DNA from: Acidobacteriota bacterium | GTDB lineage: Bacteria > Acidobacteriota > Terriglobia > 20CM-2-55-15 | Assembly: GCA_022821145.1 (NCBI GenBank) | Contig: JAJEEE010000036.1 | Span: 1-37,230, forward strand | Length of the DNA: 37,230 nt | Direction: 5' to 3' | Shown here: piece after piece, positions 12,200-32,556 of the stretch | How the letters are laid out: each line of letters starts with the position of its first letter | Numbering within the stretch: position 1 is the stretch's first letter | Position numbers and translations under genes: made by a program | The notes under the pieces: generated by a model | What the model was told of the DNA's origin: nothing | Database searches by the model: none | What the model saw: only the letters and a program-made list of their open reading frames with translations

Positions 12200-12208
12200 A
12201 CGGTCGTC

Positions 12209-13459
12209 GTGGAGTTGCGGATCCTGGGAATGGTCATGGCCGGCGGGCGCGGGAGCCGGCTGCGTCCCCTGACGAACCTGCGGAGCAAGCCGGCCGTCCC
12301 CTTCGCCGGGAAGTACCGGATCATCGACTTCGTTCTCAGCAACTTCGTCAACTCGGGAATCCACTCGATCTACGTCCTGACGCAGTTCCGCGCCCAGGCC
12401 CTGCTGCAGCACCTCCGGGACGGCTGGTCTTTCGGCGACCTGCAGAAGCAGCGGTTCATCATTCCGGTTCCCGCGCAGATGAACATCGGCGACCACTGGT
12501 ATCTCGGCACGGCCGACGCCATCTTCCAGAACCTGAACCTGATCGAGCGCTCGCAACCGGACCTGGTCGCCATCTTCGGCGCGGACCACGTCTACACGAT
12601 GGACCTCCGTCAGATGATCCGGTTTCACCGCGAGCGGTCCGCGGCCACGACCGTGTCCGCGCTCCCGATACCGGCAAGCGAGTCCAGGCAGTTCGGGACC
12701 ATCGAGGTCGACGACGACTGGCGGATCACCGGTTTCCGCGAGAAGACGCCGGACGCGCCCGAAATACCGCACCGCCCCGGGTGGTGCCTGGCGTCGATGG
12801 GGAACTACCTTTTCTCGACCGACGTCCTGTGCGACGTGCTGCGGAAGAACGCGTCGGACGAAGGCACGCGCCACGATTTCGGCCACGACATCCTACCCAA
12901 GTTGATCCAGGAGCAGCCCGTCTACGCGTACGACTTCCAATCCAACCAGGTGCCCGGCGAGAGCGAGTGGAACGCCGGTTACTGGCGCGACGTCGGAACG
13001 ATCGACGCCTACTTCGAGGCCAACATGGAAGTGCGGAGCATCGAGCCGCGCCTGAACCTCTACAACCAGGAATGGCCGATCCGGACGTCCGCCTACCCGG
13101 AAGGCCCGGTCAAGTGCACGTTCAACGAACACGGCAAGCGCGGCGTGCTTCTCGATTCGACGGCCGCCTCGGGCAGCATCATCGCCGGCGGCGAGGTCGT
13201 CGACTCGGTGCTGGGCCGCCGGGTATTCGTCGACGCCCGCGCCGAAGTGGCGGAATCGATTCTCCTGGAGAACTGCCGCGTCGGCGCCGGCGCGCGGCTG
13301 CGCCGCGTCATCGTGGACCGGAACGCCATCGTGCCGCCGGCCGCCGAGATCGGCTACGATCGGAAGAAGGACAGCGCGCGCTACACGGTGACCGAGAGCG
13401 GCGTCGTCGTCGTACCGGGCCCGCCGACGGTGATTCCCCTCACCGGCGTGGAAATCTGA
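12209..13459 (+). CDS. glgC: glucose-1-phosphate adenylyltransferase (ADP-glucose pyrophosphorylase)
   Basis: This enzyme makes ADP-glucose from glucose-1-P and ATP, the committed step of bacterial glycogen synthesis. The 416-residue protein opens with ILGMVMAGGRGSRLRPLT (nucleotide binding). It continues with SKPAVPFAGKYRIIDFVLSN, HWYLGTADAIFQN, AIFGADHVYTMD, WNAGYWRDVGTIDAYFEANM and a C-terminal left-handed beta-helix (VVDSVLGRRVFVDARAEV, ESILLENCRVGAGA). Length fits the family (about 410-430). GTG 12209 is chosen because it places the start directly before ELRILGMV, as in other GlgC proteins; an ATG at 12230 would cut into the first strand. The debranching gene begins 8 bases after its stop, so they form an operon. 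Confidence 0.95.
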   Translation: MELRILGMVMAGGRGSRLRPLTNLRSKPAVPFAGKYRIIDFVLSNFVNSGIHSIYVLTQFRAQALLQHLRDGWSFGDLQKQRFIIPVPAQMNIGDHWYLGTADAIFQNLNLIERSQPDLVAIFGADHVYTMDLRQMIRFHRERSAATTVSALPIPASESRQFGTIEVDDDWRITGFREKTPDAPEIPHRPGWCLASMGNYLFSTDVLCDVLRKNASDEGTRHDFGHDILPKLIQEQPVYAYDFQSNQVPGESEWNAGYWRDVGTIDAYFEANMEVRSIEPRLNLYNQEWPIRTSAYPEGPVKCTFNEHGKRGVLLDSTAASGSIIAGGEVVDSVLGRRVFVDARAEVAESILLENCRVGAGARLRRVIVDRNAIVPPAAEIGYDRKKDSARYTVTESGVVVVPGPPTVIPLTGVEI

Positions 13460-13467: not shown

Positions 13468-15534
13468 GTGCGACGACACGACGCGAGATTCGGCGTCCGC
13501 GCCGGCGAACGGTTCCCCCCGGGCGCGACGCCCCGACCGGCCGGCGTCAACTTCTCCACCTTCGGCCCCGACGCGAAGCGCATGGCGCTGTGTCTGTACG
13601 AGAGAGCGGACGATACGACCCCCATCCAGACGATCGAGCTCGAGCCCGACGTCCACGTCACATCGTCCTACTGGCACGTATTCGTCGAAGGCGCTGAACC
13701 CGGTCTGTACTACGCGTGGCGGACGGACGCGTCCTCGGCCGAGATCCTCGACCCCTGGGCGCGGGCCGTCGACGCGGGCCGTCGACGCGGGCGCGTGGTC
13801 GAAACCGGCGCCTACGACTGGGAGGGTGACGGCCCCCTGGACCGCCCCACCGAGGACAGCGTCATCTACGAGATGCACGTCGGGGGATTCACGCGCGGCG
13901 ATGCGTCCGCCGTGAGCCGTCCGGGCACGTTCGGCGCCGTCGTGGAGAAGATCCCCTATCTGAAGGCGCTGGGAATCACCGACGTCGAGCTGATGCCGGT
14001 GATGGCGTTCGACGCCGACGACTTGCCCGACGGGGCGGCGCGACTGGGCCTGACCAATTTCTGGGGCTACAGCCCCTACGGTTTCCACGCGCCTCACCCG
14101 CGGTACGCCGCGGGCGGCGATGCGCCGACGGAGTTTCGAGACATGGTCAAGGCCCTCCACCGGGCGGGTATCGGGGTCATTCTCGACGTGGTCCTGAACC
14201 ACACCGCCGAGGGCGGGGCGGGCGGCCCCACCATCCACTTCAAGAGCCTAGCGGCGGACGTTTTCTATCACATGGAGCCGGGACATCCAGACCGGTACCG
14301 CGACTACTCGGGTTGCGGGAACACGCTGAACTGCAACCACCCGGTCGTAGCGGAATTCCTTGTTCGATGCCTGGAGTACTGGGTCGAGGAAATGCACGTG
14401 GACGGGTTCCGCATCGATCTGGCCAGCGTGCTGACCCGCGGCGAGGACGGGCGGCCGATGGCCCATCCACCCGTCCTCCGGATGATCGAGGACTCGCCCG
14501 CGCTCCGGCGCGCGAAGTTGATCGCCGAGCCGTGGGACGCGGCGGGCCTGTACCAGGTGGGCGAATACCAGGGCGCCCGGTGGATGGAGTGGAACGGACG
14601 TTACCGGGATACGATCCGCAGAGCCCTCGGCGGAGAGCCGGGCATGCTGGGCGAGCTGGCCACGCGCGTCGCGGGCAGCAGCGACCTGTACGGGAAGAAC
14701 GGCAAGCGGCCGACCCACGGGGTCAACTTCGTCACTTGCCACGACGGGTTCACGCTGTGGGACCTGGTCAGTTACGAAACCAAGCGCAACCAGGCCAACG
14801 GCGAGAACAACCGGGACGGCAGCGACCGGAATCTCGCCTGGAACTGCGGCGTGGAGGGCCCCACCGACAAGCCCGGCGTTCTGGCGCTGCGCCGCCGCCG
14901 AGCCCGCAACTTCGTGGCCGTTCTGCTACTCAGCCAGGGCGTGCCGATGCTGTTGGCCGGCGACGAGGCGCTGCGCACGCAGGCGGGCAACAACAACGCC
15001 TACTGCCAGGACAACCCGATCGGCTGGTTCGACTGGCGGCGGGTCGAATCCAACGCAGGCATGCTCCGCTTCACGCGCGAGATCATCGCGCTGCGGCTGC
15101 GCCACCGCGCGTTGCGGCGCCGGGCCTTTCTCACCGGCCGGGCGGGAACCGGACGCGCGGGACAGGCCGACGTCGTCTGGCACGGGACGGAGACGAGATC
15201 GCCCGACTGGAACGATCCCGGCGCCCGCGTGCTCGGTTTCACTCTGTCCGGCCAGGACAACGATGAAGGCGACCTGCGCGTCATGCTCAACATGTCGGAC
15301 GCGGAGGCGCAGATGGCCGTCCCGTCACCGCCGGGACATCGGTGGTTTCGCGCGGTCGACACCGCGTTGGCGCCGCCGGAGGACATCGCGCCGCCCCACG
15401 ACCAGCCCGCGTTCGCGGAAACCCGGTACGCGGTCGCCCCCCACTCCGTCGTGGTTCTGGAGTCGCGGCCCCGCGCTCACGGGGCCTCGAGGACGATGCC
15501 GGCCAAGGGCGGCAGCGTGACGGGAATCGAGTAG
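13468..15534 (+). CDS. glgX: glycogen debranching enzyme, GlgX/isoamylase type (GH13)
   Basis: This enzyme cleaves alpha-1,6 branches in glycogen after phosphorylase has shortened the outer chains. The 688-residue protein has an N-terminal CBM48-like domain (GVNFSTFGPDAKRMALCLY) and a GH13 barrel. The barrel holds NFWGYSPYGFHAPHPRYA, IGVILDVVLNHTAEG, the nucleophile Asp317 in DGFRIDLASV, the acid Glu354 in LIAEPWD and Asp426 in TCHDGFTLWD. NGENNRDGSDRNLAWNCG is typical of GlgX/TreX. Start is GTG 13468, 8 bases after glgC. Its final 58 bases overlap the 3' end of the convergent glgB gene, so the last 19 codons are read on both strands. Confidence 0.93.
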   Translation: MRRHDARFGVRAGERFPPGATPRPAGVNFSTFGPDAKRMALCLYERADDTTPIQTIELEPDVHVTSSYWHVFVEGAEPGLYYAWRTDASSAEILDPWARAVDAGRRRGRVVETGAYDWEGDGPLDRPTEDSVIYEMHVGGFTRGDASAVSRPGTFGAVVEKIPYLKALGITDVELMPVMAFDADDLPDGAARLGLTNFWGYSPYGFHAPHPRYAAGGDAPTEFRDMVKALHRAGIGVILDVVLNHTAEGGAGGPTIHFKSLAADVFYHMEPGHPDRYRDYSGCGNTLNCNHPVVAEFLVRCLEYWVEEMHVDGFRIDLASVLTRGEDGRPMAHPPVLRMIEDSPALRRAKLIAEPWDAAGLYQVGEYQGARWMEWNGRYRDTIRRALGGEPGMLGELATRVAGSSDLYGKNGKRPTHGVNFVTCHDGFTLWDLVSYETKRNQANGENNRDGSDRNLAWNCGVEGPTDKPGVLALRRRRARNFVAVLLLSQGVPMLLAGDEALRTQAGNNNAYCQDNPIGWFDWRRVESNAGMLRFTREIIALRLRHRALRRRAFLTGRAGTGRAGQADVVWHGTETRSPDWNDPGARVLGFTLSGQDNDEGDLRVMLNMSDAEAQMAVPSPPGHRWFRAVDTALAPPEDIAPPHDQPAFAETRYAVAPHSVVVLESRPRAHGASRTMPAKGGSVTGIE

Positions 15535-17639
15535 GGCTGTTCCATGCAGGGAACGTTCTCGGAGACGATCGGCGCCGGGTTCCCGACGTCCGACCCTCCG
15601 TAGTACCGGGAGTCGGAGTTCAGGATCTCCCGATACGCGCCCGAACGGGGAACCCCGATCCGGTAACCTGTACGCGGGATCGGCGTGAAGTTCAGGACGA
15701 CGACGGCGTCTCCCCGCGAACCGACCCGAAGATAGGACAACACCGAGCTGTCGCGATCGTCCCAGCGCAGCCAACGAAAGCCCGAGGACTCGAAGTCGCG
15801 CGCGTGCAGCGGTTCCCGCGTCCGGTACAGGCGGTTCAGGTCGCCGACGAGCTTCCCGACGCCCGCATGCTCGGGCCGGTCCAGCAGAGCCCACGGCAAC
15901 TGCCCATCGTGGTTCCACTCCGACGGCTGCCCCATCTCCGAGCCCATGAACAGCAGCTTCTTCCCGGGAAAAGTCCATTGGAACGTGAACAGGAGCCGCA
16001 GGTTGGCGAGCTGCTGCCATCGGTCCCCGGGCATTTTGGCCAGCAGCGAGCCCTTCCCGTGGACGACCTCGTCGTGGGAGAGCGGAAGCAGGAAATTTTC
16101 CGAGAACGCGTACACCGGACCGAACGTCACCCGGTCGTGGTGGTGCTTGCGGTGCACGGGATCCATGGAAAAGTAGTCGAGCGTGTCGTGCATCCAACCC
16201 ATGTTCCACTTGAGGCTGAACCCCAATCCGCCGGCGTGCGTCGGCCGCGTGACTCCCGGCCACGCCGTGGACTCCTCCGCGATCACCAGCGCCCCGGGGA
16301 ACTCGAGGTGCGCGGCTTCGTTCAGCGCCCGCAGGAAGCCGACAGCTTCCAGGTTCTCGTTGCCGCCGTGGACATTCGGTGTCCACTGTCCGGGCTCCCG
16401 GGAGTAGTCCAGGTAGAGCATCGCGGCGACGGCGTCGACTCTGAGGCCGTCGAAATGAAACTCCTCGAGCCAGTAGAGCGCGCTGGAGATCAGGAAACTC
16501 CGGACCTCGCGGCGGTCGTAATTGAACGCCAACGTGCCCCAGTCGCGCTGCTCGGCCTTGAGGGGATCCGCATACTCGAACAGCGGCTCGCCGTCGAACG
16601 CGGCCAGCCCGTGCTCGTCGCGCGGAAAATGTCCGGGCACCCAATCCAGGATCACGCCGATGCCGCGTCCGTGAAGCCGGTCGATCAGGTAGCGCAGGTC
16701 GTCGGCCCCGCCGTAGCGTGACGTCGGAGCGAAGTAGCCGGTCGCCTGATAGCCCCAGGACGCGTCCAGCGGATGCTCGGTGAGCGGCAGCAGCTCGACG
16801 TGCGTGAAGCCGGTCTCTTCCAGGTACGGGACCAGGCGGTCCGCCAGCGCGCGGTAGTCGAGGAATTCCCCGGATGGACCGCGCGCCCAGGAGCCGCAGT
16901 GCAGCTCGTAGACGGAAATCGGCGCGCGGCGCCAGTCGAAAGTCGTCCGCGCTTCCAGCCACGCGGCGTCCGACCAAACGTACGCGGCGTCCGGCGCGAT
17001 TCTCGAAGCCGTGCGCGGCCTCGTTTCGAAGCACCGCGAAAAGGGATCGCTGCGCGTCAACACACGACCGTTTCGCCGGTTGCGGATCTCGAACTTGTAA
17101 AGCGCCCCCGTGTCCAGACCGGGAACGAACAGCTCCCAGACGCCCGAGCCTCCACGGACGCGCATGGGGTGGCGTCGGCCGTCCCACTCGTTGAAGTCGC
17201 CCACGACGCTGACGCGCTCGGCGTTCGGCGCCCAGAGCGCGAAGCGTACGCCGTCGACGCCGTCCACCCGGCGCGCGTGCGGCCCGAGAAACCAATGCGA
17301 GCGAAAGTGGTCGCCACGGCCGAACGACTCCATGTCGCCGTCGGAAACCTGGGGCTCGAAGGCATAGGGATCGTAACGCTCGAGGAGGCGCCCGTCACGG
17401 CGGCTGCGAATCCTGTACCGGACGGGTACACGGTCTCCGCTTCCGCGCCATTCGAATAGGTCGCCGCCGTCGATACGGACCATGGGCTCGCCGGACTCGA
17501 CGATCTCCGCGCTCTCGACGCCCGGAAGGAACGCGCGGACGATCACGTCTCCGCCTCCGGCGGGATGCCGTCCGAGCACGGAGAACGGATCGTGCAGCCG
17601 GCCTTCGGCCAGCCGCCGCAGCGCTTCTCCGGTGTCCAT
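15477..17639 (-). CDS. glgB: 1,4-alpha-glucan branching enzyme (GH13)
   Basis: This enzyme introduces alpha-1,6 branches into glycogen. The 720-residue length is typical of full-length GlgB with two N-terminal CBM48-like domains: the first holds LHDPFSVLGRHP, the second GVRFALWAPNAERVSVVGDFN. The GH13 barrel shows ELHCGSWAR, ASWGYQATGYFAPTSRYG, the nucleophile Asp402 in DGLRVDAVAAMLYLDYSR, the acid Glu455 in VIAEESTAW and Asp523 in LSHDEVVHGKGS. The ATG at 17639 fits the family's N-terminus, but no clear Shine-Dalgarno is present. It is divergent from the phosphorylase gene (133-base spacer) and its 3' end overlaps glgX. Confidence 0.96.
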   Translation of the reverse strand: MDTGEALRRLAEGRLHDPFSVLGRHPAGGGDVIVRAFLPGVESAEIVESGEPMVRIDGGDLFEWRGSGDRVPVRYRIRSRRDGRLLERYDPYAFEPQVSDGDMESFGRGDHFRSHWFLGPHARRVDGVDGVRFALWAPNAERVSVVGDFNEWDGRRHPMRVRGGSGVWELFVPGLDTGALYKFEIRNRRNGRVLTRSDPFSRCFETRPRTASRIAPDAAYVWSDAAWLEARTTFDWRRAPISVYELHCGSWARGPSGEFLDYRALADRLVPYLEETGFTHVELLPLTEHPLDASWGYQATGYFAPTSRYGGADDLRYLIDRLHGRGIGVILDWVPGHFPRDEHGLAAFDGEPLFEYADPLKAEQRDWGTLAFNYDRREVRSFLISSALYWLEEFHFDGLRVDAVAAMLYLDYSREPGQWTPNVHGGNENLEAVGFLRALNEAAHLEFPGALVIAEESTAWPGVTRPTHAGGLGFSLKWNMGWMHDTLDYFSMDPVHRKHHHDRVTFGPVYAFSENFLLPLSHDEVVHGKGSLLAKMPGDRWQQLANLRLLFTFQWTFPGKKLLFMGSEMGQPSEWNHDGQLPWALLDRPEHAGVGKLVGDLNRLYRTREPLHARDFESSGFRWLRWDDRDSSVLSYLRVGSRGDAVVVLNFTPIPRTGYRIGVPRSGAYREILNSDSRYYGGSDVGNPAPIVSENVPCMEQPYSIPVTLPPLAGIVLEAP

Positions 17640-17701
17640 CCCGGCACGATAACACCAAATCGGACCCGGCCGGCCGTCACGCGGGTCCGAACCGGATGTC
17701 G

Positions 17702-17707
17702 TACAAT
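17702..17707 (+). promoter_or_regulatory. -10-like TACAAT before the GAF-phosphorylase gene
   Basis: TACAAT lies in the 133-base spacer between the divergent glgB and phosphorylase starts. It would give a transcript start near 17714 and a leader of about 59 bases to the ATG at 17773. No -35 match is visible at normal spacing, so this is a weak call. Confidence 0.3.
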
Positions 17708-17772
17708 GGCATTTTGGCGTGCCCGGAATCGCAGCGGCTGCCTGGAGCGGAAACGAACCCCTGGAACCCCAC

Positions 17773-20442
17773 ATGAGCGAACGCCATTCCGAGTCCGAGC
17801 GCTCTCCGGAACCGCCCTCGGCGCCGGCGGACGACGTCGAGATCGAAGACGGCAAGTCGCGTGAGCTGCTGATGGAGCTCGCGGCGTCTTCGGCCGATCG
17901 CTTCGGCGCCGAAGTCTGTTCCATCTACCTGCTGGAGGCGGACCGGGCGAACCTGGTGCTGGCCGCGACGTTCGGCCTGCGTCCGGAATCCGTCGGAAAG
18001 GTCCGGATGGGACTCCGAGAGGCCCTGACCGGCCTGGTGGCCGAACGGTCCCGTCCCGTGGCGGTCGAGCACGTCCAGGCGCATCCCCGCTTCAAGTACT
18101 TTCCCGACACGGGTGAGGAAGCCTACGAGTCCTTCCTGGGTGTCCCGCTGTCCGACCGCGGGGTCCTGCAAGGCGTGCTGGTCGTGCAGACCGTCCAGCC
18201 ACGCGTCTTCGGACCGGATGACATCGAGCGGCTGGAGGCGATCGCCGACCGGATCGCACCCCTGGTCGGCGATGTCCGCGCCCTGGAACACTTCATCGCG
18301 CCGACCGGCGATCGGCTCTGGGCCCTGGCCCGGAACCTCTGGTGGAGCTGGGATCCGGATGCCGGAAGCCTGTTTCGCGATCTCGACCCCGAGCGGTGGC
18401 GCGAGCTTGGGCAGAACCCGATCGCGTTGCTCGGCGAGATCCCGCTCCGGGAGCTGGAGCGGCGAGCGGACGTCCACGTCCTCCACAGCCGGATCAACGC
18501 TGCGTTCCGCCGTTTCCGACAATACGTCGAGCAGACCGAAACGTGGGGCACCGTGAACGCCGGCGTCCTGGGGCGCGGACCCGTGGCGTATTTCTCGGCC
18601 GAGTTCGGGATCCACGCGTCCGTCCCGATCTATTCGGGCGGACTGGGGGTGCTGGCCGGAGACCACCTCAAGAGCGCGTCGGACCTGGGCGTGCCGCTGG
18701 TCGGGGTCGGGTTGCTGTACAGCTACGGGTATTTCCGGCAGCGCCTGGACGATGCCGGATGGCAGCGGGAGGAGTACATCCGAAACGATCCCGCCCGGTT
18801 GCCGATCGAGCCCGCCGTCGACGGGACGGGCCAACCCGTCCGGATCTCGATCGAGACGCGAACCGGCGTGATCCACGCGAAGGTCTGGCGGATGGCGGTC
18901 GGACGGTGCGGCCTGCTCCTGCTCGACTCGGACATCGACGGCAATGCCGCGGAGGACCGGGAATTGACCGCCCGGCTGTATGGAGGCGACAACCGCGTTC
19001 GGATCCGTCAGGAATTGCTGCTGGGCGTGGGCGGCGTCCGCGCCTTGGCGGCGATGGGGATCTCTCCCGGCGCCTACCACCTGAACGAAGGACACAGCGC
19101 ATTCGCCGTCTTCGAGGCGATTCGCCACCGCATGGCGCAGGACGGCCTGGACTACGGCGGCGCCGCGCGGCGCATCGGCCGGACGGTCGTGTTCACCACG
19201 CACACGCCCGTGCCGGCCGGGCACGATCGATTCCACCCGGAACTGGTCGAGGAGCACCTCGGTCCGTTGCGTGAAGCGCTGCGGCTCTCGCCGCGGGACT
19301 TCCTGGCGCTGGGGCGCGTCGATCCCCACAACGCCAGGGAGGAGTTCTGCATGACCGTGTTGGCGCTCCGGCTGTCGCGCCGGGCCAACGCGGTTTCGTG
19401 CCTGCACGGCGAGGTTTCGCGAGGGATGTGGACGTCGCTGTGGCCGGGCCGCCCCGAGGACGAGGTTCCGATCGGACACATCACCAACGGTATCCATTCC
19501 CCGTCCTGGCTGGCCCCGCAGATGGTTCAACTCTACGGACGGCACCTGACGGGAAAACGCGACTGGATCGAGCGCGTCGGCGATGCGAATACCTGGCGAG
19601 ACGTGGAAAGCATCGACGACGAGGAGCTGTGGGAAACCCACCTGGCCTTGAAGTCCCGGTTGCTCCGCTTCGCGCGTCGGCGCGCCGTCGTTCAGGCCCA
19701 AAAGCGGAACGCGGATCCGGGAGAGTTGGAACGGCTGTCGCGCATCCTGAGCCCCGACGCGCTGACGATCGGGTTCGCCCGCAGGTTCGCCACCTACAAG
19801 CGCGCCGCCCTGATCCTGACCGACCTGGAGCGGCTTGTCGCTCTGGTCAATGACGCCCGGCGTCCGCTGCAGCTCGTCTTTGCCGGCAAGGCCCACCCGC
19901 TGGACGAGCCCGGCAAGCGGGTGCTGCAACGGATCGCGGAGCTGACCCGCGATTCGCGGCTCCGAGACCGGGTGGTGTTTATCGAGGACTACGACCTCAA
20001 CGTCGGCCGCTACATGGTCCAGGGCGTGGACGTATGGCTCAACACGCCGCGTCGCCCGCTGGAGGCCTCGGGCACGAGCGGCCAGAAGGTCGTTCTGAAC
20101 GGAGGCCTGAACCTCTCGGTGCTCGATGGCTGGTGGGCCGAGGCCTACGACGGCTCGAACGGCTTCGCGATCGGACCGAACCGCGCCCACGTCGATCCCG
20201 AGCAGCACGACCGGCGCGACAGCGAGGACCTGTATCGGGTACTGACCGACACGGTCATTCCGCTCTACTACGACGACCGCGACGCGGACGGGCTGCCGCG
20301 GGGATGGATCCGGCGGATGAAGCGCTCGATCCGCACGCTCGGTTGGCGCTTCAGCGCCGATCGGATGGTGATGGACTACACGCGGCACTGCTACGTGCCG
20401 GCGGCCGGCGGTACGTCGCATAACATGTCCCGCGTCCCATGA
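17773..20442 (+). CDS. glgP: GAF domain fused to alpha-glucan (glycogen) phosphorylase
   Basis: The C-terminal part releases glucose-1-P from glycogen. It begins near residue 178 with WALARNLWWSWDPDA (the DUF3417 region typical of the ~850-residue alpha-glucan phosphorylase class). It continues through VAYFSAEFGIHASVPIYSGG, HLNEGHSAF, TTHTPVPAGHD and EASGTSGQKVVLNGGLNLS, where Lys772 is the expected pyridoxal-phosphate lysine. Residues 29-167 form a separate GAF domain (GAEVCSIYLLEADR, HPRFKYFPDTGEEAYESFLG, RGVLQGVLVVQ) that closely resembles the GAF domain of PtsP (enzyme I-Ntr). A charged, proline-rich segment precedes it. Standard glycogen phosphorylases lack GAF domains, so an added ligand-sensing step is inferred. 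ATG 17773 is preferred to an in-frame GTG at 17719; the ribosome binding site is weak. malQ follows after 7 bases. Confidence 0.93.
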   Translation: MSERHSESERSPEPPSAPADDVEIEDGKSRELLMELAASSADRFGAEVCSIYLLEADRANLVLAATFGLRPESVGKVRMGLREALTGLVAERSRPVAVEHVQAHPRFKYFPDTGEEAYESFLGVPLSDRGVLQGVLVVQTVQPRVFGPDDIERLEAIADRIAPLVGDVRALEHFIAPTGDRLWALARNLWWSWDPDAGSLFRDLDPERWRELGQNPIALLGEIPLRELERRADVHVLHSRINAAFRRFRQYVEQTETWGTVNAGVLGRGPVAYFSAEFGIHASVPIYSGGLGVLAGDHLKSASDLGVPLVGVGLLYSYGYFRQRLDDAGWQREEYIRNDPARLPIEPAVDGTGQPVRISIETRTGVIHAKVWRMAVGRCGLLLLDSDIDGNAAEDRELTARLYGGDNRVRIRQELLLGVGGVRALAAMGISPGAYHLNEGHSAFAVFEAIRHRMAQDGLDYGGAARRIGRTVVFTTHTPVPAGHDRFHPELVEEHLGPLREALRLSPRDFLALGRVDPHNAREEFCMTVLALRLSRRANAVSCLHGEVSRGMWTSLWPGRPEDEVPIGHITNGIHSPSWLAPQMVQLYGRHLTGKRDWIERVGDANTWRDVESIDDEELWETHLALKSRLLRFARRRAVVQAQKRNADPGELERLSRILSPDALTIGFARRFATYKRAALILTDLERLVALVNDARRPLQLVFAGKAHPLDEPGKRVLQRIAELTRDSRLRDRVVFIEDYDLNVGRYMVQGVDVWLNTPRRPLEASGTSGQKVVLNGGLNLSVLDGWWAEAYDGSNGFAIGPNRAHVDPEQHDRRDSEDLYRVLTDTVIPLYYDDRDADGLPRGWIRRMKRSIRTLGWRFSADRMVMDYTRHCYVPAAGGTSHNMSRVP

Positions 20443-20449
20443 CCGGTTG

Positions 20450-21805
20450 ATGGACGGCGTGTTCGCGCGGCGGCGGGCCGGCGTGCTGCTGCACCCGACC
20501 TCGTTGCCCGGACCCGGCGCCAACGGAACGATCGGTCCGGAGGCTCGGCGCTTCGTCGACTTCATGAGGGACGCGGGTTTCACCGTCTGGCAAACGCTTC
20601 CCATCGGACCGACCGACCGTTTCGGCTCGCCGTATTCCCTGCGGTCCGAGCACGCCGGAAATCTCGACCTGATCGACGCCGAGCCGTCGGACGAAACCGC
20701 GCCCGCCGCCTTCGCCCGGCGCCATCGACGCTGGCTTCTGCCCTATGCGCTCTTTCGTTCGTTCGAGCGGACGTTCCGCGCCCCGTGGTGGCGATGGCCG
20801 GCGGATGTCCGCGACCGCGACGGCGAGGCGATACGGAGGCGCCTGGCGCGGGAGGCGGCCGGCATCCGCGCCGTCGTCCGGGAACAATACCGCTTCGAAC
20901 GGCAATGGACGGCTCTCAAACGGTACGCGAACGACCGGGGCGTCTACCTGTTCGGCGACGTCCCGTTCTACGCCAACCGCGACAGCGTCGACGTGTGGTG
21001 GCATCGCCGGCTCTTCCGCGTCGGAACCCGCGGCGAACCGGGGGCGGTGGCCGGCGTCCCGCCGGACTACTTCAACCGCGACGGCCAGCTCTGGGGCAAT
21101 CCCCTGTATCGGTGGGACCGGCTGGAACGGGAAGGGTTCGATTGGTGGGTCGGCCGGCTGCTGCACCATCTCGAACGGTTCGACCTGGTCCGGATCGATC
21201 ACTTTCGCGCGTTCGCCGCGTATTGGGAAATCCCCGCCGGGGCGGACACGGCGCGCGGCGGACGGTGGCGTCCCGGTCGCGGCGCGGCGCTGCTGGCGGA
21301 GCTTCGGCGGCGCCTGGGACCGCTGCCCCTGGTCGCCGAAGACCTGGGCGATATCGACGACGACGTTCGCGAGCTCCGGGACCGCTTCTCGCTGCCCGGG
21401 ATGGCTGTGCTTCAGTTCGCTTTCGACGGTTCGGACGCCAACCCCCACTTGCCGCGAAACCATCGGGTCGATTCCGTCGTCTACACCGGCACGCACGACA
21501 ACGATACGACCCGGGGATGGTTCGACGGCCTCGAGGACGGCGCCCGACGCTACGTGTGCCGGATTCTCGGCTGCGCCGAACCCGACGTTCCCTCATCGAT
21601 GATCGCGGCGGCGTACGGCTCGTCGGCGAGGCTGGCGGTCGTCCCGTTGCAGGACGTGATCGGGCTCGGCTCGGAAGGTCGCATGAACACGCCGGGTACG
21701 ACGGCGGAAAACTGGCGCTGGCGTTTCGACTGGAGCGCGCTCGGCCCAGCAACGGCGGCCCGCTTCAGGGAGCTGGCCCGGCGCCACGGCCGGTTCATCG
21801 GCTGA
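20450..21805 (+). CDS. malQ: 4-alpha-glucanotransferase (amylomaltase, GH77)
   Basis: This enzyme transfers glucan chains between maltodextrins and turns short products of debranching back into phosphorylase substrates. The 451-residue protein shows GVLLHPTSLPGPG at the N-terminus, PIGPTDRFGSPYS, GDVPFYANRDSVDVW and GVPPDYFNRDGQLWGNPLY. The GH77 catalytic residues are Asp250 in RIDHFRAF, Glu297 in VAEDLG and Asp350 in YTGTHDNDT. It is somewhat shorter than the usual ~500 residues, but all core motifs are present. The ATG at 20450 lies 7 bases after the phosphorylase stop; a TTG directly before it could also serve. It is co-transcribed with glgP and convergent with glgA (11-base overlap). Confidence 0.94.
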   Translation: MDGVFARRRAGVLLHPTSLPGPGANGTIGPEARRFVDFMRDAGFTVWQTLPIGPTDRFGSPYSLRSEHAGNLDLIDAEPSDETAPAAFARRHRRWLLPYALFRSFERTFRAPWWRWPADVRDRDGEAIRRRLAREAAGIRAVVREQYRFERQWTALKRYANDRGVYLFGDVPFYANRDSVDVWWHRRLFRVGTRGEPGAVAGVPPDYFNRDGQLWGNPLYRWDRLEREGFDWWVGRLLHHLERFDLVRIDHFRAFAAYWEIPAGADTARGGRWRPGRGAALLAELRRRLGPLPLVAEDLGDIDDDVRELRDRFSLPGMAVLQFAFDGSDANPHLPRNHRVDSVVYTGTHDNDTTRGWFDGLEDGARRYVCRILGCAEPDVPSSMIAAAYGSSARLAVVPLQDVIGLGSEGRMNTPGTTAENWRWRFDWSALGPATAARFRELARRHGRFIG

Positions 21806-23165
21806 CGACGCGGCGGTAGGCCGCTTCGTACGCGTCCACCCGCCGGTCCCACGAGAAGTCGGCCGTCATGGCATTCCGGACCAGGCGCGGCCACGCCGCC
21901 GGATCGCCATACCACTCGATCGCGCGCTCGAGCGCCCACGTCAGGCCGCCGGGATCGGCGTCCTCGAAAACGCTGCCGTTCCCCTGGCCCGAACCCGGGT
22001 CGAAATGCCGGACCGTGTCGGCCAGGCCGCCCGTTCGGCGGACGACGGGTATCGTTCCGTATCGCAACGCGTACATCTGCGTCAGACCGCACGGCTCGTA
22101 GCGCGACGGCACGAGGAACAGGTCGGCGCCCGCGTATATACGATGCGCCAGTGGCTCGTCGTAGCCGCTGGCGAACGCGATGCGATCGGGATGCGCCGCG
22201 GCCATTCCTTCGAGCGTGCGCTCCAACGCGGCGTCTCCGCTTCCCAACACGACGAAACCGGCCCGGGTTCGCCCGAGGAGGCCCGGCAGCGCGTCGATCA
22301 GCAGGTCGACGCCCTTCTGGAAGACCAACCGCGACACCATGCCCACGAGCGGGGACTCCGCGTCGGAGCCCGGCAGCCGCTCGGCGCGCAGGGACGCTTT
22401 GGCCCGCCGCTTTCCCGACGGATCGGCCGCGTCGTAGCGCGCGTGGATCAGCGGGTCGCTGGCGGGCTCCCATGTCCGGTAGTCCACGCCGTTGAGAATG
22501 CCGACCAGGTCGTCGCCGCGGTCGCCGAGGAGCCCGTCCAGGCCCATTCCGTACTCCGGTGTGCGGATCTCGCGGGCATAGGTCGGGCTCACCGTCGTCA
22601 CCAGGTCGGCGGCGCGCAGTCCGGCCTTCAGGAAGTTGACGCGGCCGTCCGCTTCGAACGCCGCGTCGAAATCGCCGACGCCTTCGACCGCCGACCGGGG
22701 GAATACACCCTGGTAACCCAGGTTGTGGACGGTGAGCATCGTCGGGACCGGGGAGCGAAGCGACGGCGCCAACGCGGCATGCCAGTCGTGGCAGTGGAGG
22801 ACGTCGGGCCGCCATCCAATGACGCCGCCCAACGCATGCGCCGCGACAGCCAGGTGCGCGAAACGGACCGCGTCGCGGTCGTCGCCCGTATACACCGATC
22901 CTGCGTCGAGCCCCGGAACGTCGAGCCGATAGAGCCTGGGACCGCCCGCCGGACTGTCGTGTTCCAGCAACCGGCCCTCGCCGACGCGGCCCCGGTCCCG
23001 CGCGGGCGGCGACGTCACGCGCGCGTACGCGGGAACGAGCACGCGGACATCGTGGCCGGCATCGGCCAGGGCGCCGCCCAGCCCCGCGACCGCGTCGGCG
23101 AGTCCGCCGGTCTTGACCAGACCGGCGTACTCGGCTGCCACCATCAGGATCTTCATCGGAATCAT
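21795..23165 (-). CDS. glgA: glycogen synthase (GT5)
   Basis: This enzyme extends alpha-1,4 glucan chains from ADP-glucose made by GlgC. The 456-residue protein has the N-terminal ADP-glucose motif KTGGLADAV (Lys18). It also has DVLHCHDWHAAL, TVHNLGYQG, GILNGVDYRTW, VSRLVFQKGVDLL and the C-terminal SRYEPCGLTQMYALRYGT with RRTGGLADTV. It is slightly shorter than E. coli GlgA (477). The ATG at 23165 is favoured because a TGAGG formed by the upstream stop codon sits about 10 bases before it; ATG 23156, which begins MKILMVAAEYA, is the alternative. It is the second gene of an operon with phosphofructokinase, and its last 11 bases overlap malQ. Confidence 0.95.
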   Translation of the reverse strand: MIPMKILMVAAEYAGLVKTGGLADAVAGLGGALADAGHDVRVLVPAYARVTSPPARDRGRVGEGRLLEHDSPAGGPRLYRLDVPGLDAGSVYTGDDRDAVRFAHLAVAAHALGGVIGWRPDVLHCHDWHAALAPSLRSPVPTMLTVHNLGYQGVFPRSAVEGVGDFDAAFEADGRVNFLKAGLRAADLVTTVSPTYAREIRTPEYGMGLDGLLGDRGDDLVGILNGVDYRTWEPASDPLIHARYDAADPSGKRRAKASLRAERLPGSDAESPLVGMVSRLVFQKGVDLLIDALPGLLGRTRAGFVVLGSGDAALERTLEGMAAAHPDRIAFASGYDEPLAHRIYAGADLFLVPSRYEPCGLTQMYALRYGTIPVVRRTGGLADTVRHFDPGSGQGNGSVFEDADPGGLTWALERAIEWYGDPAAWPRLVRNAMTADFSWDRRVDAYEAAYRRVVSR

Positions 23166-23177: not shown

Positions 23178-24353
23178 TCAGGCGCGCGTCAGGAACAGCG
23201 GCAACCCGGCCTTCGCGGCGTAGTCGGGACGGAAGCGCGCCCGGTTGTATAGGGTGGCGACGTCGAGCCGGCGTGCGCCCAACGCCGGATCGGGAATCTC
23301 GGTGTCGGTGTAGCACCCGTTGCGGACGGCCGTCATGCGCCCGAATCCGCGGTCGGCCACGCACTCGAACGCCATGCTCGCGAACGTGTACGCGACCATC
23401 TTGTCGAGAAAGTCCGGATCGCCGCTCCGGAGGTCGTAGGTCAGATCGCTCACCGCCGTATCCTCGCCGGTCCGCCGCCGGATCTCCTCGCTCAACGCCT
23501 CGGCCACGTTGAGCTTTCGACGGTTCCCATAGGCATCGGGCTCGCCGTACTCCACGACCTCGCGTCCCTGCCAGGTCGCCCCCTCCGACATGACCAGCAG
23601 GGCGTAGCGGCTGGGATTGCTCCGCTTGTCGGCCATGAGCAGCTCGATCAACCGCGACAGGTCGAACGGCGCCTCCGGAATGCAGCACCGCAGAGACGCC
23701 ACGTAGGCCGTGTAGAACGCCGTAAAGCCGGCGTCCCGCCCGAAGACCCGGAAGATTCCGATCCGCTCGTGCGAGCCGATGGTCGTCGTCTGCCTCCGGA
23801 TCGCGTCGACGGCCCGCGTGATCGCCGTCGAGAAGCCGACGCAGTACTCGGTGTTGCGCACGTCGTTGTCCATGGTCTTCGGGATGGCGACCACCGGGAA
23901 TCCGTGTTGCGCGAGAACGGAGGCGTAGCTCAGCGTGTCGTCGCCGCCGATGGGGAGCAGGCAGTCGATGCGGAGCCGCTGGAGATTCTCGATCACCAGC
24001 GGGGTCAGGTCGAAGTAGCCGGGCGCGACCTCCGTGCAGCGACCCAGCATCGGCTGCTGGTTGGCCGACAGCACCGACGCCTTCATCCGAGACGGCCGCG
24101 CGCGCGACGTGTGCAGGAACGTGCCCCCCGTGCGATCGACCGTGCGCGTGTTCTCCCGGTTGAGGACGATGAAGTTCTCGGGATCGAGCTCCTTGTCCAG
24201 GTCCCCGTGCACCAGCCCCAGCCACCCGCGGCGGATGCCGACGACCTCGAACTCGTCGGTCTCCGTGCTGCGGTAGGCGACGGACTTGACGACCGCGTTG
24301 AGGCCCGCGACGTCGCCGCCCCCTGTGAGAATGCCGATTCGGATCTTTGCCAA
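23178..24353 (-). CDS. phosphofructokinase, probably PPi-dependent
   Basis: This enzyme phosphorylates fructose-6-P (reversibly if PPi is the donor). The 391-residue protein carries ILTGGGDVAGLNAVV at the N-terminus, IGGDDTLSYA (residues 135-144), IPKTMDNDV (157-165) and RVFGRDAGFTA. In E. coli ATP-PFK the second Asp is Gly104 and the Lys is Gly124; Asp plus Lys at these positions is the established marker of PPi-dependent enzymes. PPi use is therefore a sequence-based inference. The start is TTG 24353, supported by GAGGTG 6 bases upstream. glgA follows after 12 bases. GlgC releases PPi when making ADP-glucose, so pairing with a PPi-using PFK makes metabolic sense. Confidence 0.9.
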   Translation of the reverse strand: MAKIRIGILTGGGDVAGLNAVVKSVAYRSTETDEFEVVGIRRGWLGLVHGDLDKELDPENFIVLNRENTRTVDRTGGTFLHTSRARPSRMKASVLSANQQPMLGRCTEVAPGYFDLTPLVIENLQRLRIDCLLPIGGDDTLSYASVLAQHGFPVVAIPKTMDNDVRNTEYCVGFSTAITRAVDAIRRQTTTIGSHERIGIFRVFGRDAGFTAFYTAYVASLRCCIPEAPFDLSRLIELLMADKRSNPSRYALLVMSEGATWQGREVVEYGEPDAYGNRRKLNVAEALSEEIRRRTGEDTAVSDLTYDLRSGDPDFLDKMVAYTFASMAFECVADRGFGRMTAVRNGCYTDTEIPDPALGARRLDVATLYNRARFRPDYAAKAGLPLFLTRA

Positions 24354-24578: not shown

Positions 24579-24857
24579 GTGATTCGCAGCTTCCGCGGGC
24601 GGAGAACCCGACGGTTCTTCGAGGGCCTTCGCGTGCCGGCGTTCGAAGGGTTCGCGGATCAGGCGGCGCGACGCTTGACAGCGCTGGACAATGCCGAAGC
24701 GCTCCGCGACTTGGCCGGTTTGCCGAGTAACCGGCTGGAACGGTTACGCGGCGACAGGTCCGGGCAGCACAGTATCCGGATCAATTCGCAGTGGCGGGTT
24801 TGTTTTCGTTGGACGGACAACGGGCCGTCGGAGGTCGAAATCGTCGACTATCATTGA
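24579..24857 (+). CDS. higB: HigB-type toxin (RelE superfamily mRNA interferase)
   Basis: This 92-residue protein has the exact size and pattern of HigB toxins: an opening IRSFRGRRTRRFFEG, a central LDNAEALRDLAGLPSNRLE, the core GQHSIRINSQWRVCFRW and a terminal VEIVDYH. HigB cleaves mRNA on the ribosome when free of HigA. Start GTG 24579 is preferred over GTG 24561 because homologues begin with (M)I-x-SF. The toxin comes before the antitoxin, which is the usual order in higBA. The genes flanking it (PFK/glgA and pckA) are metabolic, so the pair was probably inserted into this block. Confidence 0.92.
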   Translation: MIRSFRGRRTRRFFEGLRVPAFEGFADQAARRLTALDNAEALRDLAGLPSNRLERLRGDRSGQHSIRINSQWRVCFRWTDNGPSEVEIVDYH

Positions 24858-24870
24858 AGAGGTCATGGGA

Positions 24871-25176
24871 ATGAACCTCAGCAACGGAATGCGGCCCGTG
24901 CACCCGGGCGAGATTCTTCAAGAGGAACTCGACACGTTGGAGATGTCGGCGAACGCCTTGTCGAAGGCGCTCGGCGTTCCAGTGAACCGGGTCACGATGA
25001 TTCTGAACGGCCAGCGGGGCGTCAGCGCCGATACGGCGCTGCGATTGGCAAGGTATTTCGGGACCACGCCTCAATTGTGGCTAAACCTCCAGAAGACGTG
25101 GGAGCTTCGCCGCGCGGAGATCGCGTCGGGTTCCGAGATCGACGCGCGCGTAACGCCCAGACGGACGGTGGCGTAG
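24871..25176 (+). CDS. higA: HigA-type antitoxin, XRE-family HTH
   Basis: This 101-residue protein starts with the HigA signature MRPVHPGEILQEEL and contains a helix-turn-helix (ALSKALGVPVNRVTMILNGQ) followed by ALRLARYFGTTPQLWLNLQ. It neutralises HigB and represses its own promoter, probably through the palindrome at 24543-24557. ATG 24871 is preferred because an AGAGG lies 8 bases upstream; ATG 24865 has only 2 bases of spacing. It begins 13 bases after the higB stop. Confidence 0.93.
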   Translation: MNLSNGMRPVHPGEILQEELDTLEMSANALSKALGVPVNRVTMILNGQRGVSADTALRLARYFGTTPQLWLNLQKTWELRRAEIASGSEIDARVTPRRTVA

Positions 25177-28342: not shown

Positions 28343-30805
28343 TTATGGAACGTTGACAAGGTTTTCTGCGTCGGACCGCGCGACGGAGGACGGTGCGGCC
28401 GGTTCCAACCGCGTCCTCATCTGGAACGGCGGACTCTCGACGATGCCCATCATGATGGACGACAACGCGTGGTCGTCTTCCGCCGCCCGCCGGACGACGC
28501 TTCGGACGACGGCCATGTCCGCCGGCTCCAGGCCCCTTCCGAGCGCGTACGTCATCAGGCGCTCGGCGACGATCGCGGCGAAGGCGTCGGGCCGGTCGAG
28601 AATCGCCTGTCGAAGCTCTACGGGCCCGTTCACGTCCCGGCCGTCCCCCATCCGTCCCGCGGAATCGATGGGCGTTCCGTCGGCCGTCTCCCGCCATTTT
28701 CCGACCGAATCGAAGTTCTCCAGGGCGAAGCCGACCGGATCGATCGTGCGGTGACAGGACGCGCAGGCGGGATTCTGGCGATGCGCCTCCAACTGTTCCC
28801 GCACCGTGCGCGGGGCTTCCGTGCCGCCGGCGTCGCTCTCCTCGAGCGCGGGCACGTTGGGCGGCGGCGGCGGCGGCGGCGTGCCCAGGAACGTGTTCAA
28901 CACGTAGACGCCGCGAAACACGGGCGAGGTGCGGTTGGCGACCGATGTCAGCGACAGCACGCTGCCGTGGCCGAGAAGCCCGTGGCGCCGCTCGTCCGCC
29001 ACCTCCACCATACGGAACCGCGAGCCGTAGACGCCCGGAATCCCGTAGTGGCGGGCCAACCGCTCGTTCACGAACGTGTAGTCCGCGTCCAGCAGCTCCA
29101 GCAGGCTCCGATCGTGTCGCAGGATGTGCGCGAACAGCATTTCGGTCTCGCGGCGAAACGCCTGGCGCACGTTGTCGTCGAAATCCGGGAAGAGCAGGAT
29201 GTCGGGCTGCACCTTGGCTTCGAGACTGCGCAACTGCAGCCACTGGCCCACGACATCGCTGACCAGCGCGTCGGCGCGGTCATCGGCGATCATGCGGCGC
29301 ACCTGCGCCTCGAGGACGCCCGGTTCGCGAAGCCGGCCGGCCTCGGCCGCCGACAGCAGATCCTCGTCCGGAATGCTGCTCCAGATGAAGAACGACAGGC
29401 GCGACGCCAGCTCGATGTCGCTGATCGGAAAGGCCGTTCCGGGCGCGACGGTGTCGGGATCCTCCTCGATCCGGTACAGGAAGCGCGGGCTGGACAGAAT
29501 GCGCGTCAGCCCGGCGCGGATGCCGGCGTCGAACGCGGCGCCGCGGTCTCGAGCATCTTCGTAGAATTCCATCGGGGCCGCGATGTCCGGCAACGCGACC
29601 GGGCTCCGGAAGGCGCGGCGCGCCAGGTTCAGAAAGATCCGCTCGGCGCACGGGCGCTCCTCGGCGGCCGACGCCGGGCGGCAAACGAATACGCGCTCCC
29701 GGCTGGGCGTCGCGCTCACCCCGGTCACCGCGTACGGCCCCTCGACGTGAACGGTCTTCAGACGCGGCAGGCCGCCGATCATGTGGATTTCCTGGCTGTC
29801 GCGCAGCGAGGGCTGCCAGACGTCCTGCCACTGGAAGCTGCGTTCCCGGAACGTGAACCCCACGTCGTGCGGTCCCGCGGTGACGGGGACGCGAGCGGTC
29901 ATGCGCGCGTCGATGATGGGACGCGCCTCGTTCATGTCCCGTCCCTGGACCTCGTGGTCCTCCAACCCGCCGATCTCGGCCGAATACACCTCGGCCCCGT
30001 CCACGGTGATGACGAACGTGTTCGGAATGTCGTTGCCCTCGACCCCGGCATATCCCTCTTCGATGCCCCGAACCAGCCGCCCGAAGAGCACGTAGTCCCC
30101 GTCGGCCGGGAAGACGTGACGCACCACCGTGCCGCCGCGCGTGCCCAGGGGCAGTCCCTCGACATGCCCGCTCTGCGAGTAGTTCCGGTTGATGGCGTAC
30201 TCGGTCGTGCCTGTCTCGGCTTCCGCGTCCCCCACGGCCAGCGTGCTGATGCGCTGCGCCGCGATCAGATACCGCTCCAACAGGAGCGGCGAGGTCGGCA
30301 GCGCCGCGGCGATGTTGTCGAACCCGAAGTCGGCGCCGTCGCTGGGGAGCAGGCCGGTGACGTCGACGTCCACGGCGAGCAGGTCGCGGACGGCGTTCTG
30401 GTACTCCCTCCGGTTCAGTCGATGCGCCACGTAGCGTCCGGACGCGGACTGCGCGGCCCAGGCCTCATCCAGCCTTCCCGCCAACCACGTCGTGAACGCG
30501 GAGTAGTCCGCTTCGGAGGGGCGGCTCGCGCCCTCGGGGGGCATCGCCCGGACGCTCAGCTTGCGAAGCACGCGCTCCCATGTCGCCGCGTCCTCCATGG
30601 GCGCATCGAGGTTGGCCGACTCGAGATTCACCGGGTTGTTCTCCGGCAGCGCTTGCCGGTCGTTGTGGCAGGCCACGCAATACTGGTCCAGCAGGGCGCG
30701 ATGCTGGGCGAGCCCCCCCGACTGCGCGGCCGCGGCCGGGATGAGCAGATTGCCGGCTGCCGAGGCGACGAGGACCGTCAACACCGCACGCGCGACGGCG
30801 TTCAT
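28343..30805 (-). CDS. DUF1592-family multi-domain c-type cytochrome-like protein
   Basis: This 820-residue exported protein belongs to the DUF1587-1595-1592-1588-1585 architecture of Planctomycetes and Acidobacteriota. A signal peptide is followed by a haem-binding YCVACH (Cys43, Cys46, His47). Next come RLNRREYQNAVRDLL (DUF1587), NLARRAFRSPV (DUF1595), SRLSFFIWSSIPD (DUF1592), HGLLGHGSVLSLTS with the proline run GTPPPPPPPNVPALEE (DUF1588), and a second ACASCH followed by TIDPVGFALENFD. A carbohydrate-binding-like insert seems present around residues 210-330 (NTFVITVDGAEVYS). It likely binds haem in the periplasm; substrate and partners are unknown. The start overlaps the ankyrin gene stop in an ATGA. 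Confidence 0.94.
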   Translation of the reverse strand: MNAVARAVLTVLVASAAGNLLIPAAAAQSGGLAQHRALLDQYCVACHNDRQALPENNPVNLESANLDAPMEDAATWERVLRKLSVRAMPPEGASRPSEADYSAFTTWLAGRLDEAWAAQSASGRYVAHRLNRREYQNAVRDLLAVDVDVTGLLPSDGADFGFDNIAAALPTSPLLLERYLIAAQRISTLAVGDAEAETGTTEYAINRNYSQSGHVEGLPLGTRGGTVVRHVFPADGDYVLFGRLVRGIEEGYAGVEGNDIPNTFVITVDGAEVYSAEIGGLEDHEVQGRDMNEARPIIDARMTARVPVTAGPHDVGFTFRERSFQWQDVWQPSLRDSQEIHMIGGLPRLKTVHVEGPYAVTGVSATPSRERVFVCRPASAAEERPCAERIFLNLARRAFRSPVALPDIAAPMEFYEDARDRGAAFDAGIRAGLTRILSSPRFLYRIEEDPDTVAPGTAFPISDIELASRLSFFIWSSIPDEDLLSAAEAGRLREPGVLEAQVRRMIADDRADALVSDVVGQWLQLRSLEAKVQPDILLFPDFDDNVRQAFRRETEMLFAHILRHDRSLLELLDADYTFVNERLARHYGIPGVYGSRFRMVEVADERRHGLLGHGSVLSLTSVANRTSPVFRGVYVLNTFLGTPPPPPPPNVPALEESDAGGTEAPRTVREQLEAHRQNPACASCHRTIDPVGFALENFDSVGKWRETADGTPIDSAGRMGDGRDVNGPVELRQAILDRPDAFAAIVAERLMTYALGRGLEPADMAVVRSVVRRAAEDDHALSSIMMGIVESPPFQMRTRLEPAAPSSVARSDAENLVNVP

Positions 30806-32556
30806 TGCGCCGCGGACTCCCGCGCCGCGTCGTCCGCCGAGTTGCCTTCCGATTCGGCGTCGGCCTCGCCGGAGCCGTCCGCGTCGCCGGAAGCTTCGGC
30901 CTCGCCCGAACCGTCGCCCTGGCCGTCGCCCGCCTCCGGCTCTTCCGGCAGCGGCGGCGGCATGGGAGCCGGGTCGTCGGGGCCGAGGCCCATCAGCTCG
31001 CGCAGCGCGGCGATCACGTCTTCCCGGGAATCCTGCGGCCGACGATACGTGCGGTCGTCGGTGTTGTTGCCCTCCGGCGGCGGCGGGGGCGGCTGTTCGG
31101 CCAGCAGCAGCGGCGTCAGGTTCTCTCCGTCGACGGCGTCAAGGTCCGCGCCCGCGGCCACCAGTTCGCGAATGATCGCCACCTGCTTCGCGTCGACGGC
31201 CATGTGCAACGGCGTGGAGTCGTTCGGCGTCGGCACGTTGGGATCGGCGCCGGCCTCCAGCAGCACGCGGATCGCGTCGAGCGGCTCGCGGTTCGCGGCT
31301 TCGCGGAACGGCGGCGGCCCGAGCCGCGTGAACCCGGGTCCGGCGGCGAAGGGAGCGCCGCGGCCCCCGTTCAGGGCCACCATGATCGGCGTTCTCCCGA
31401 CGTTCGCGTTGCCGCGGCCGCCGGTCTCCTCGCCGTCCTCGGCCTCAGGCGCCAGGGGACTCCATTCCACGTCGGCGCCGTGGGAGATCATCAGCTTCAA
31501 CACCTCGACGTCGGCGGCCGTCGCCGCGCGGAAAAACGGCGAGCTGTTGACGCGCGGAGCGCAGCACAGGGTGGTGGAATGCAACTGCCCCACGAACGGC
31601 TTGTTCGGATCCGCGCCGCGATCGAGCAGCAACTCGACCAGGTCGAAGGCCGTCAGCGCGTTGTCGTGGTCGGCGCGCAACCGCGAACCGTCGTGCGCAC
31701 GCATGTCCGTGGTGGCGTCGTGCATGTCGACGGCGAAATAGAGAGCGCCGTCGTCCGGGTCCGCGCCCAGGTCGAGCAGCGTCCGGGCCAAATCGAACCG
31801 GTCGTTGATGATGGCGACGACGGTCGGGGTCGCGCCGTCGCCGTTGGTGACGGTGGGATCCGCGCCGCCCGCAATCAGCGTCCGGACAACGTCCTCATGG
31901 CCGTTCCGCACCGCGAAGTGCAGCGCGGTGAAACCGCCGGTCGCGTGATCGGCGTGCTTCCGCTCCTCGATCGTCGTGAGCCGCCCCTTCCGATCGGAAT
32001 CGGCGCCGGCTCGCAGCAGGGCGTCCGCGACGTCGGCGTGCCCTTCCGCGGCGGCCCACATCAGGGCCGTCTGTTCCTGGTAGGTTTCGACCGCGTCGAC
32101 ATCGGCGCCGGCGGCGATCAGCCGTTCGACAGCAACCAGGCTGCCCGAACCCGCCGCCGCCATGAGCGCGGTCTCGCCGTCGGGTTGGACCGTATCCAGC
32201 GACGCGCCGGCATCCAGCAGCACGCCCACCATGGCGCCGTCGCCGGTCCGGGCAGCTTGCAAGAGCGGCGCGATCCCGTACGCGTTCGCCGCGTCCACGT
32301 CCGCGCCGGCCGCGATCAACGCTTCGGCCATCTCCAAGTCGTGATGGTAGGCCGCCCACAGTAGCGCGGTCGACCCGTCCGGTCCCGGCTCGCTGACGCC
32401 AGCGCCCGCGGCGATCATCTCGCGAACGGCGTCGATGTCGCCGTCCCTCGCCGCCGCCGAGATACCGTCGTCGCGTGCTTGTCCGAGGGCGATGGCGCCC
32501 CCGGCCGCCAGCAACGCGGCCAATGACAACAGGATCGAAGTCCGTCGAGTCCGCAT
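30802..32556 (-). CDS. exported ankyrin-repeat protein
   Basis: This 584-residue protein has a signal peptide (MRTRRTSILLSLAALLAAGG) and about nine to ten ankyrin repeats. Examples are ALLWAAYHHDLEMAEALIAA, APLLQAARTGDGAMVGVLLD, TALMWAAAEGHADVADALLR, TALHFAVRNGHEDVVRTLIA and TPLHMAVDAKQVAIIRELVA. The C-terminus is low-complexity and rich in Pro, Gly, Glu and Ala. Ankyrin arrays bind proteins; here the partner is probably the co-encoded DUF1592 or DUF1552 protein. The ATG at 32556 follows AAGGGG with about 10 bases of spacing. It is the first gene of the operon, and translation is coupled to the cytochrome gene by ATGA. Confidence 0.92.
   Translation of the reverse strand: MRTRRTSILLSLAALLAAGGAIALGQARDDGISAAARDGDIDAVREMIAAGAGVSEPGPDGSTALLWAAYHHDLEMAEALIAAGADVDAANAYGIAPLLQAARTGDGAMVGVLLDAGASLDTVQPDGETALMAAAGSGSLVAVERLIAAGADVDAVETYQEQTALMWAAAEGHADVADALLRAGADSDRKGRLTTIEERKHADHATGGFTALHFAVRNGHEDVVRTLIAGGADPTVTNGDGATPTVVAIINDRFDLARTLLDLGADPDDGALYFAVDMHDATTDMRAHDGSRLRADHDNALTAFDLVELLLDRGADPNKPFVGQLHSTTLCCAPRVNSSPFFRAATAADVEVLKLMISHGADVEWSPLAPEAEDGEETGGRGNANVGRTPIMVALNGGRGAPFAAGPGFTRLGPPPFREAANREPLDAIRVLLEAGADPNVPTPNDSTPLHMAVDAKQVAIIRELVAAGADLDAVDGENLTPLLLAEQPPPPPPEGNNTDDRTYRRPQDSREDVIAALRELMGLGPDDPAPMPPPLPEEPEAGDGQGDGSGEAEASGDADGSGEADAESEGNSADDAARESAAQ

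Follow-up and report, generated by a model that had tools for sequence, protein, structure and literature searches.

An alpha-glucan phosphorylase fused to an N-terminal PtsP-type GAF domain in Terriglobia-type Acidobacteriota, a candidate metabolite-sensing enzyme

The window analysed here, by which we mean the whole stretch of 37,230 nucleotides of acidobacterial DNA, carries a gene in which a GAF domain of the PtsP type is joined to DUF3417 and an alpha-glucan phosphorylase (GlgP), all within one intact ORF that encodes 889 residues (17773 to 20442, plus strand) and is recognised by both Pfam and NCBIfam. From comparison of sequences we lean, by a modest degree, toward the reading that in this fusion a glycogen phosphorylase carries its own sensor for a metabolite. 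In a narrower form, drawn by analogy and held only tentatively, the phosphorylase might be gated directly by glutamine/2-oxoglutarate through its PtsP-related GAF domain, without a PTS phosphorelay. The sensor reading is backed by the PtsP type of the GAF domain, by the constraint acting on it, by the surrounding glycogen gene cluster and by the status of the fusion as the sole phosphorylase found in the genome. Against it stand an identity to PtsP GAF domains of just 28-42%, an alanine at residue 84 (A84) in the lineage of the window, and a gene neighbourhood that is not conserved outside the genus.

The bacteria that are best understood adjust glycogen to carbon and nitrogen supply through separate proteins and through transcription. 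If the sensor reading is true, abundant soil bacteria would possess a compact, testable allosteric control of a carbon store by nitrogen or another metabolite; in its narrower form, nitrogen status would be read by the carbon-store-degrading enzyme itself. Such a one-protein switch would hold for a sizeable share of the Terriglobia-type Acidobacteriota and, in the genome of the window, for the only phosphorylase that was found. A PtsP-type GAF domain would then operate outside the phosphorelay, and the fusion offers a simple enzymatic read-out of the ligand specificity of such a domain.

Architecture of the fusion and kinship of its GAF domain

The ORF runs from an ATG at 17773 to a stop at 20442, although translation may instead begin at a GTG in the same frame at 17719. 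A sequence-only reading of this DNA had described a single frame holding a GAF domain (residues 29-167) and a complete phosphorylase with its PLP lysine, a description borne out by Pfam, NCBIfam and the lysine itself, K772. From Pfam and an AlphaFold model, we place the GAF domain at residues 28-170 (17854-18282), including a C-terminal helix at residues 148-169; the Pfam GAF_2 match covers residues 33-162 with an E value of 1.6e-16 and 61.2 bits, against a gathering score of 28.6. A junction of residues 171-180 (18283-18312), delimited in an alignment of fusions, leads into DUF3417 (Pfam, residues 181-283; 18313-18621), the N-terminal domain of the TIGR02094 phosphorylase family, and then into the TIGR02094 alpha-glucan phosphorylase itself (NCBIfam, residues 271-876; 18583-20400), all on the plus strand. 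The TIGR02094 match scores 818 bits, against a curated cut-off of 191.7, and covers profile positions 1-600, making the protein a member of that family; the Pfam Phosphorylase domain lies at residues 434-817. Translation and alignment locate the PLP site, GTSGQKVVLNG, at 20071-20103 (plus strand), where K772 (codon 20086-20088) sits within EASGTSGQKVVLNG. In 56 homologues K772 is invariant, and across the motif E764-A-S-G-T-S-G-Q-K772 only S766 and Q771 vary. The catalytic part is predicted to carry out phosphorolysis of glycogen or maltodextrin, with which the complete glg cluster around it agrees.

The model of the full-length fusion (mean pLDDT 82, pTM 0.76) shows, in order, the GAF C-terminal helix at residues 148-169, a weakly predicted break at 171-175 and the first DUF3417 helix at 178-187. 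Its top fold match is the Segatella copri glycogen phosphorylase 9l6i (TM 0.73), a GT35, TIGR02094 enzyme (PDB 9l6i/20yr) that shares with the fusion the catalytic domain, the DUF3417 region and the PLP lysine motif, at 38% identity and TM 0.73 over the common part. Unlike the fusion, however, the S. copri enzyme and most other family members have no GAF domain, and the S. copri match begins only at about residue 180-184 of the window protein. On the minus strand, a 975-codon ORF lies antisense to the entire fusion gene (17677-20604), and similar antisense frames occur at related loci; rather than a gene, we treated it as a shadow frame of the kind expected with G+C-rich codon use.

Profile, sequence, tree and fold all support assignment of the GAF domain to the PtsP type. 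The best NCBIfam family for the GAF segment is PtsP (PRK11061, 90.5 bits), aligned over PtsP residues 29-154, and the match to NifA is far weaker (22.7 bits). The PtsP match is confined to the N-terminal part, within PtsP residues 30-174 when the whole protein is considered, and the C-terminal PEP-utilising enzyme I domains are absent from the fusion; by its domain content, the window protein is not a PtsP. In a sequence search of the PDB, the first matches of the GAF domain were the PtsP GAF domains 3ci6 (Acinetobacter) and 3trc (Coxiella), together with the Geobacter GAF domain 3e0y. When the AlphaFold model of the GAF domain alone (residues 25-172, mean pLDDT 91.6) was compared with PDB folds, 3ci6 and 3trc were again on top, with TM values of 0.84-0.86. 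Among matches of the GAF domain in a plasmid collection, all annotated ones were PEP-phosphotransferase (ptsP-type) records. In a GAF tree of few sequences and a short domain, with the root put by choice on other GAF domains, those of the fusions form one group (89/99) and those of PtsP another (96/73), and a branch supported at 98/92 sets both apart from 11 other GAF domains, 3e0y included.

At the level of residues, the sequence-only reading had likened the blocks EVCSIYL, HPRFKYFP, SFLGVP and GVLVVQ to PtsP, and indeed all four are present and agree with the PtsP sequences of Acinetobacter, Sinorhizobium, E. coli and further species. Thirty-five positions conserved among the fusions are common to PtsP, and the PtsP-shared positions that differ in the nearest acidobacterial GAF domains include, among others, S50, G68-L69, H104, G114, S120, G123 and V137; a further 23 positions are conserved among the fusions but differ in PtsP. 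A PtsP-type GAF domain is found, in short, in both PtsP and GlgP: in PtsP (enzyme I-Ntr; 3ci6, 3trc) it has the same blocks and fold, is likewise N-terminal and is likewise joined through its C-terminal helix, but the output is a phosphotransferase there and a phosphorylase here. Two further proteins of the same genome carry tandem GAF domains (contig C3, 12413-13423, and contig C31, 18819-19826, of genome G000) and give weak scores of 35-62 bits with the PtsP GAF model.

Distribution and genomic setting

The fusion is neither a chance event nor a chimera, since a genome of the same genus holds a copy at 92% identity and dozens more are found at 58-69%. The latter come from 49 loci in a public genome collection, mainly Acidobacteriota MAGs and isolates of the Terriglobia type with a few Planctomycetota, where taxa follow deposited labels that can mislead for MAGs (as for one labelled 'Bifidobacterium breve', L049). 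Cultured bearers include Paracidobacterium acidisoli 4G-K13 and Occallatibacter savannae AB23. Within the Terriglobia-type Acidobacteriota, the class in which these relatives would place the window, about 49 of 299 sampled genomes from at least six families carry the fusion, counted as a match that begins no later than residue 33. A sample of the phylum gave 5 of 199 genomes, one of these with the fusion in pieces, and in 199 genomes sampled from the phylum of a planctomycete bearer the fusion was seen in that bearer alone. From these counts, the fusion is common in a single class, sparse elsewhere and atypical of the enzyme family as a whole. The premise that bacterial phosphorylases normally lack a GAF domain holds as well, most of the TIGR02094 family in the sampled genomes being GAF-less. 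The survey of architectures proposed with the sequence-only reading thus yielded recurrence in many genomes and, in the literature, no described function for the fusion. We found no paper describing a GAF-phosphorylase in the open literature, where subscription journals and database notes may differ, and the term 'GAF domain' does not occur in a review from 2024 on the alpha-glucan enzymes of prokaryotes.

In a tree of the catalytic part, 24 of 25 fusion sequences group together (SH-aLRT 98), while the remaining one, from a planctomycete, is unresolved; this pattern is compatible with a single fusion event. No enzyme I with a GAF domain was found among 18 genomes (17 fusion bearers and a Singulisphaera with a GAF-less phosphorylase), where enzyme I matches begin at PtsP residue 165 or later; in the fusion bearers checked, the PtsP model finds its best GAF match in the fusion gene. 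As candidates for other sensor fusions, four long ORFs that seem to be extended at the N terminus were considered and set aside, as by eye the extensions look like read-through outside the gene and not like sensors.

No phosphorylase other than the fusion was found in the genome of the window, whereas many relatives carry at least two. Its surroundings are a complete classical glycogen cluster. Upstream lie glgC (glucose-1-phosphate adenylyltransferase; 12200-13459, plus strand, start approximate), glgX (debranching enzyme; 13474-15534, plus strand, start approximate), whose TIGR02100 score of 615 bits is just below the cut-off of 641, and glgB (branching enzyme; 15477-17639, minus strand, start assumed at MDTGEAL), which is divergent from the fusion. 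Four bases past the glgP stop, malQ (4-alpha-glucanotransferase; 20447-21805, plus strand) begins, and the two genes form a probable glgP-malQ operon. The cluster is completed by glgA (ADP-glucose-type glycogen synthase; 21795-23165, minus strand) and, on the same strand and on the upstream side of glgA, a phosphofructokinase homologue (23178-24353, minus strand). These glg neighbours recur only in the same-genus genome, and a neighbourhood comparison found no conserved neighbour gene of the fusion outside the genus. Gene neighbourhood was accordingly dropped as a clue to the signal; the large ORF clusters in that comparison are alternative frames of the fusion gene itself.

As for PTS components, the enzyme I of the genome has no GAF domain, HPr adjoins enzyme I, and a PtsN-type EIIA was not found in the genome. 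With enzyme I GAF-less and PtsN not found, no nitrogen PTS is evident around the fusion. Elsewhere in the window, a DUF1587/1592/1588/1585/1595 (PSD-type) protein with a cytochrome domain lies beside a long ankyrin-repeat protein (28343-30805 and 30802-32661, both minus strand). The C-terminal half of an ORF at 24691-25176 (plus strand) resembles, by eye, an antitoxin of the HigA type (MNLSNGMRPVHPGEILQEEL...), and a HigB-like frame may directly precede it.

Constraint, possible signals and alternative explanations

Across 38 fusions, the mean share of the majority residue is 0.80 in the GAF domain, 0.82 in the catalytic part and 0.44 in the N-terminal tail. Residues 160-185 are free of indels in 38/38, and the length of the GAF domain is identical in 37 of the 38. 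For the window protein compared with its relative in the same genus, dN/dS values are 0.061 in the GAF domain, 0.114 in DUF3417 plus the junction, 0.122 in the catalytic part and 0.376 in the tail. The GAF domain, conserved like the catalytic part, with a lower dN/dS and identical spacing, is therefore a constrained part of the protein. Constraint and fixed spacing argue that it affects the enzyme in some way, and conservation and fixed spacing resemble those of a rigid mechanical link between the two, a link that we infer.

In the mechanism we propose, a small molecule would bind in the GAF pocket, and the resulting change would pass via the C-terminal helix of the GAF domain and the junction of invariant length to the N-terminal DUF3417 and the presumed dimeric enzyme, so that ligand binding would raise or lower glycogen phosphorolysis. 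The layout is like that of the adenylyl cyclase CyaB2 and the cGMP phosphodiesterases, where an N-terminal GAF controls a C-terminal enzyme; cAMP binding to the CyaB2 GAF domains switches the attached adenylyl cyclase and provides a precedent (PMC4411481).

By descent, the most likely ligands would be glutamine and/or 2-oxoglutarate as in PtsP, which makes them our leading guess, taken from PtsP only. In E. coli, glutamine inhibits and 2-oxoglutarate stimulates PtsP autophosphorylation in a GAF-dependent manner, and the PtsP proteins of Sinorhizobium and Caulobacter respond to glutamine (PMC4848567; PMC13104625). The L83Q mutation makes Caulobacter PtsP blind to glutamine. Regulation through the PtsP GAF domain is not validated in every species, since in P. 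aeruginosa its deletion was without effect on lasI regulation (PMC12369347). In the fusion, glutamine, as a mark of nitrogen plenty, would activate the phosphorylase and favour glycogen breakdown, and 2-oxoglutarate, as a mark of nitrogen shortage and carbon excess, would inhibit it; glycogen is then predicted to be stored while nitrogen limits growth. The nitrogen signal, already suggested by the sequence-only reading, is by this analogy a fair lead.

The ligand may, however, have changed relative to PtsP, given the identity of only 28-42%. Residue 84 (18022-18024) is Ala in the window protein and its same-genus relative, and Gly in 97% of aligned fusions and in all sampled PtsP and acidobacterial GAF domains; A84 may reflect an altered ligand response in this genus. 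It is thus quite possible, if short of an even chance, that the enzyme is ligand-gated but by a signal other than nitrogen, such as another amino acid, an organic acid, a sugar phosphate or a nucleotide. Such an enzyme would still be gated, only by a different ligand, and the probability of this reading overlaps that given to the built-in sensor. Besides the sequence distance, the great variety of natural GAF ligands, the 23 fusion-conserved positions that differ in PtsP and the failure to find PtsN in the genome speak for it; PtsP as the closest GAF type by profile, tree and fold speaks against it.

Two specific classes of signal are not indicated. The GAF domains of CyaB2 and the cGMP phosphodiesterases have cyclic nucleotides as ligands and usually contain an NKFDE motif, which is missing from the fusions (0/54 GAF domains). 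Redox sensing, which the sequence-only reading had entertained, finds no conserved cysteine pair of the fRMsr-like kind among 54 homologues: C49, shared with PtsP, is the only conserved GAF cysteine, and C73, found in 41/54, is absent from the window protein. Both absences also count against a signal other than nitrogen.

GAF domains frequently dimerise, and an unlikely alternative is that this one binds no free ligand and serves as a dimerisation or docking module that links the phosphorylase to, for example, HPr or enzyme I, standing in for HPr control as in E. coli GlgP. There, HPr binds glycogen phosphorylase and controls its oligomeric state and activity (PMC11046441), a complex for which the PDB holds a structure (9s8k), and HPr is present beside enzyme I in the genome of the window. 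In both systems a PTS-related input would act on a glycogen phosphorylase, but in E. coli a separate protein binds, whereas in the fusion the PtsP-type sensor is covalently part of the enzyme. If the domain were no more than a handle for dimerisation, the core positions of the PtsP type would not have to be kept, yet these are conserved, and the enzyme family manages without a GAF domain in most genomes. That the GAF domain is a passenger, joined on neutrally and without influence on the enzyme, is very improbable: Planctomycetota commonly have orthologues of about 60% identity that lack the domain, but it is kept at 58-92% identity across many families, with its dN/dS of 0.061 and spacing fixed in 38/38 fusions.

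Apart from these readings, at least three planctomycete bearers also have a GAF-less copy (L044/L081, L050/L064 and G477). Each of these genomes offers a natural pair of isozymes from one subfamily, the first fused to a GAF domain and the second without it, on which the role of the domain can be probed.
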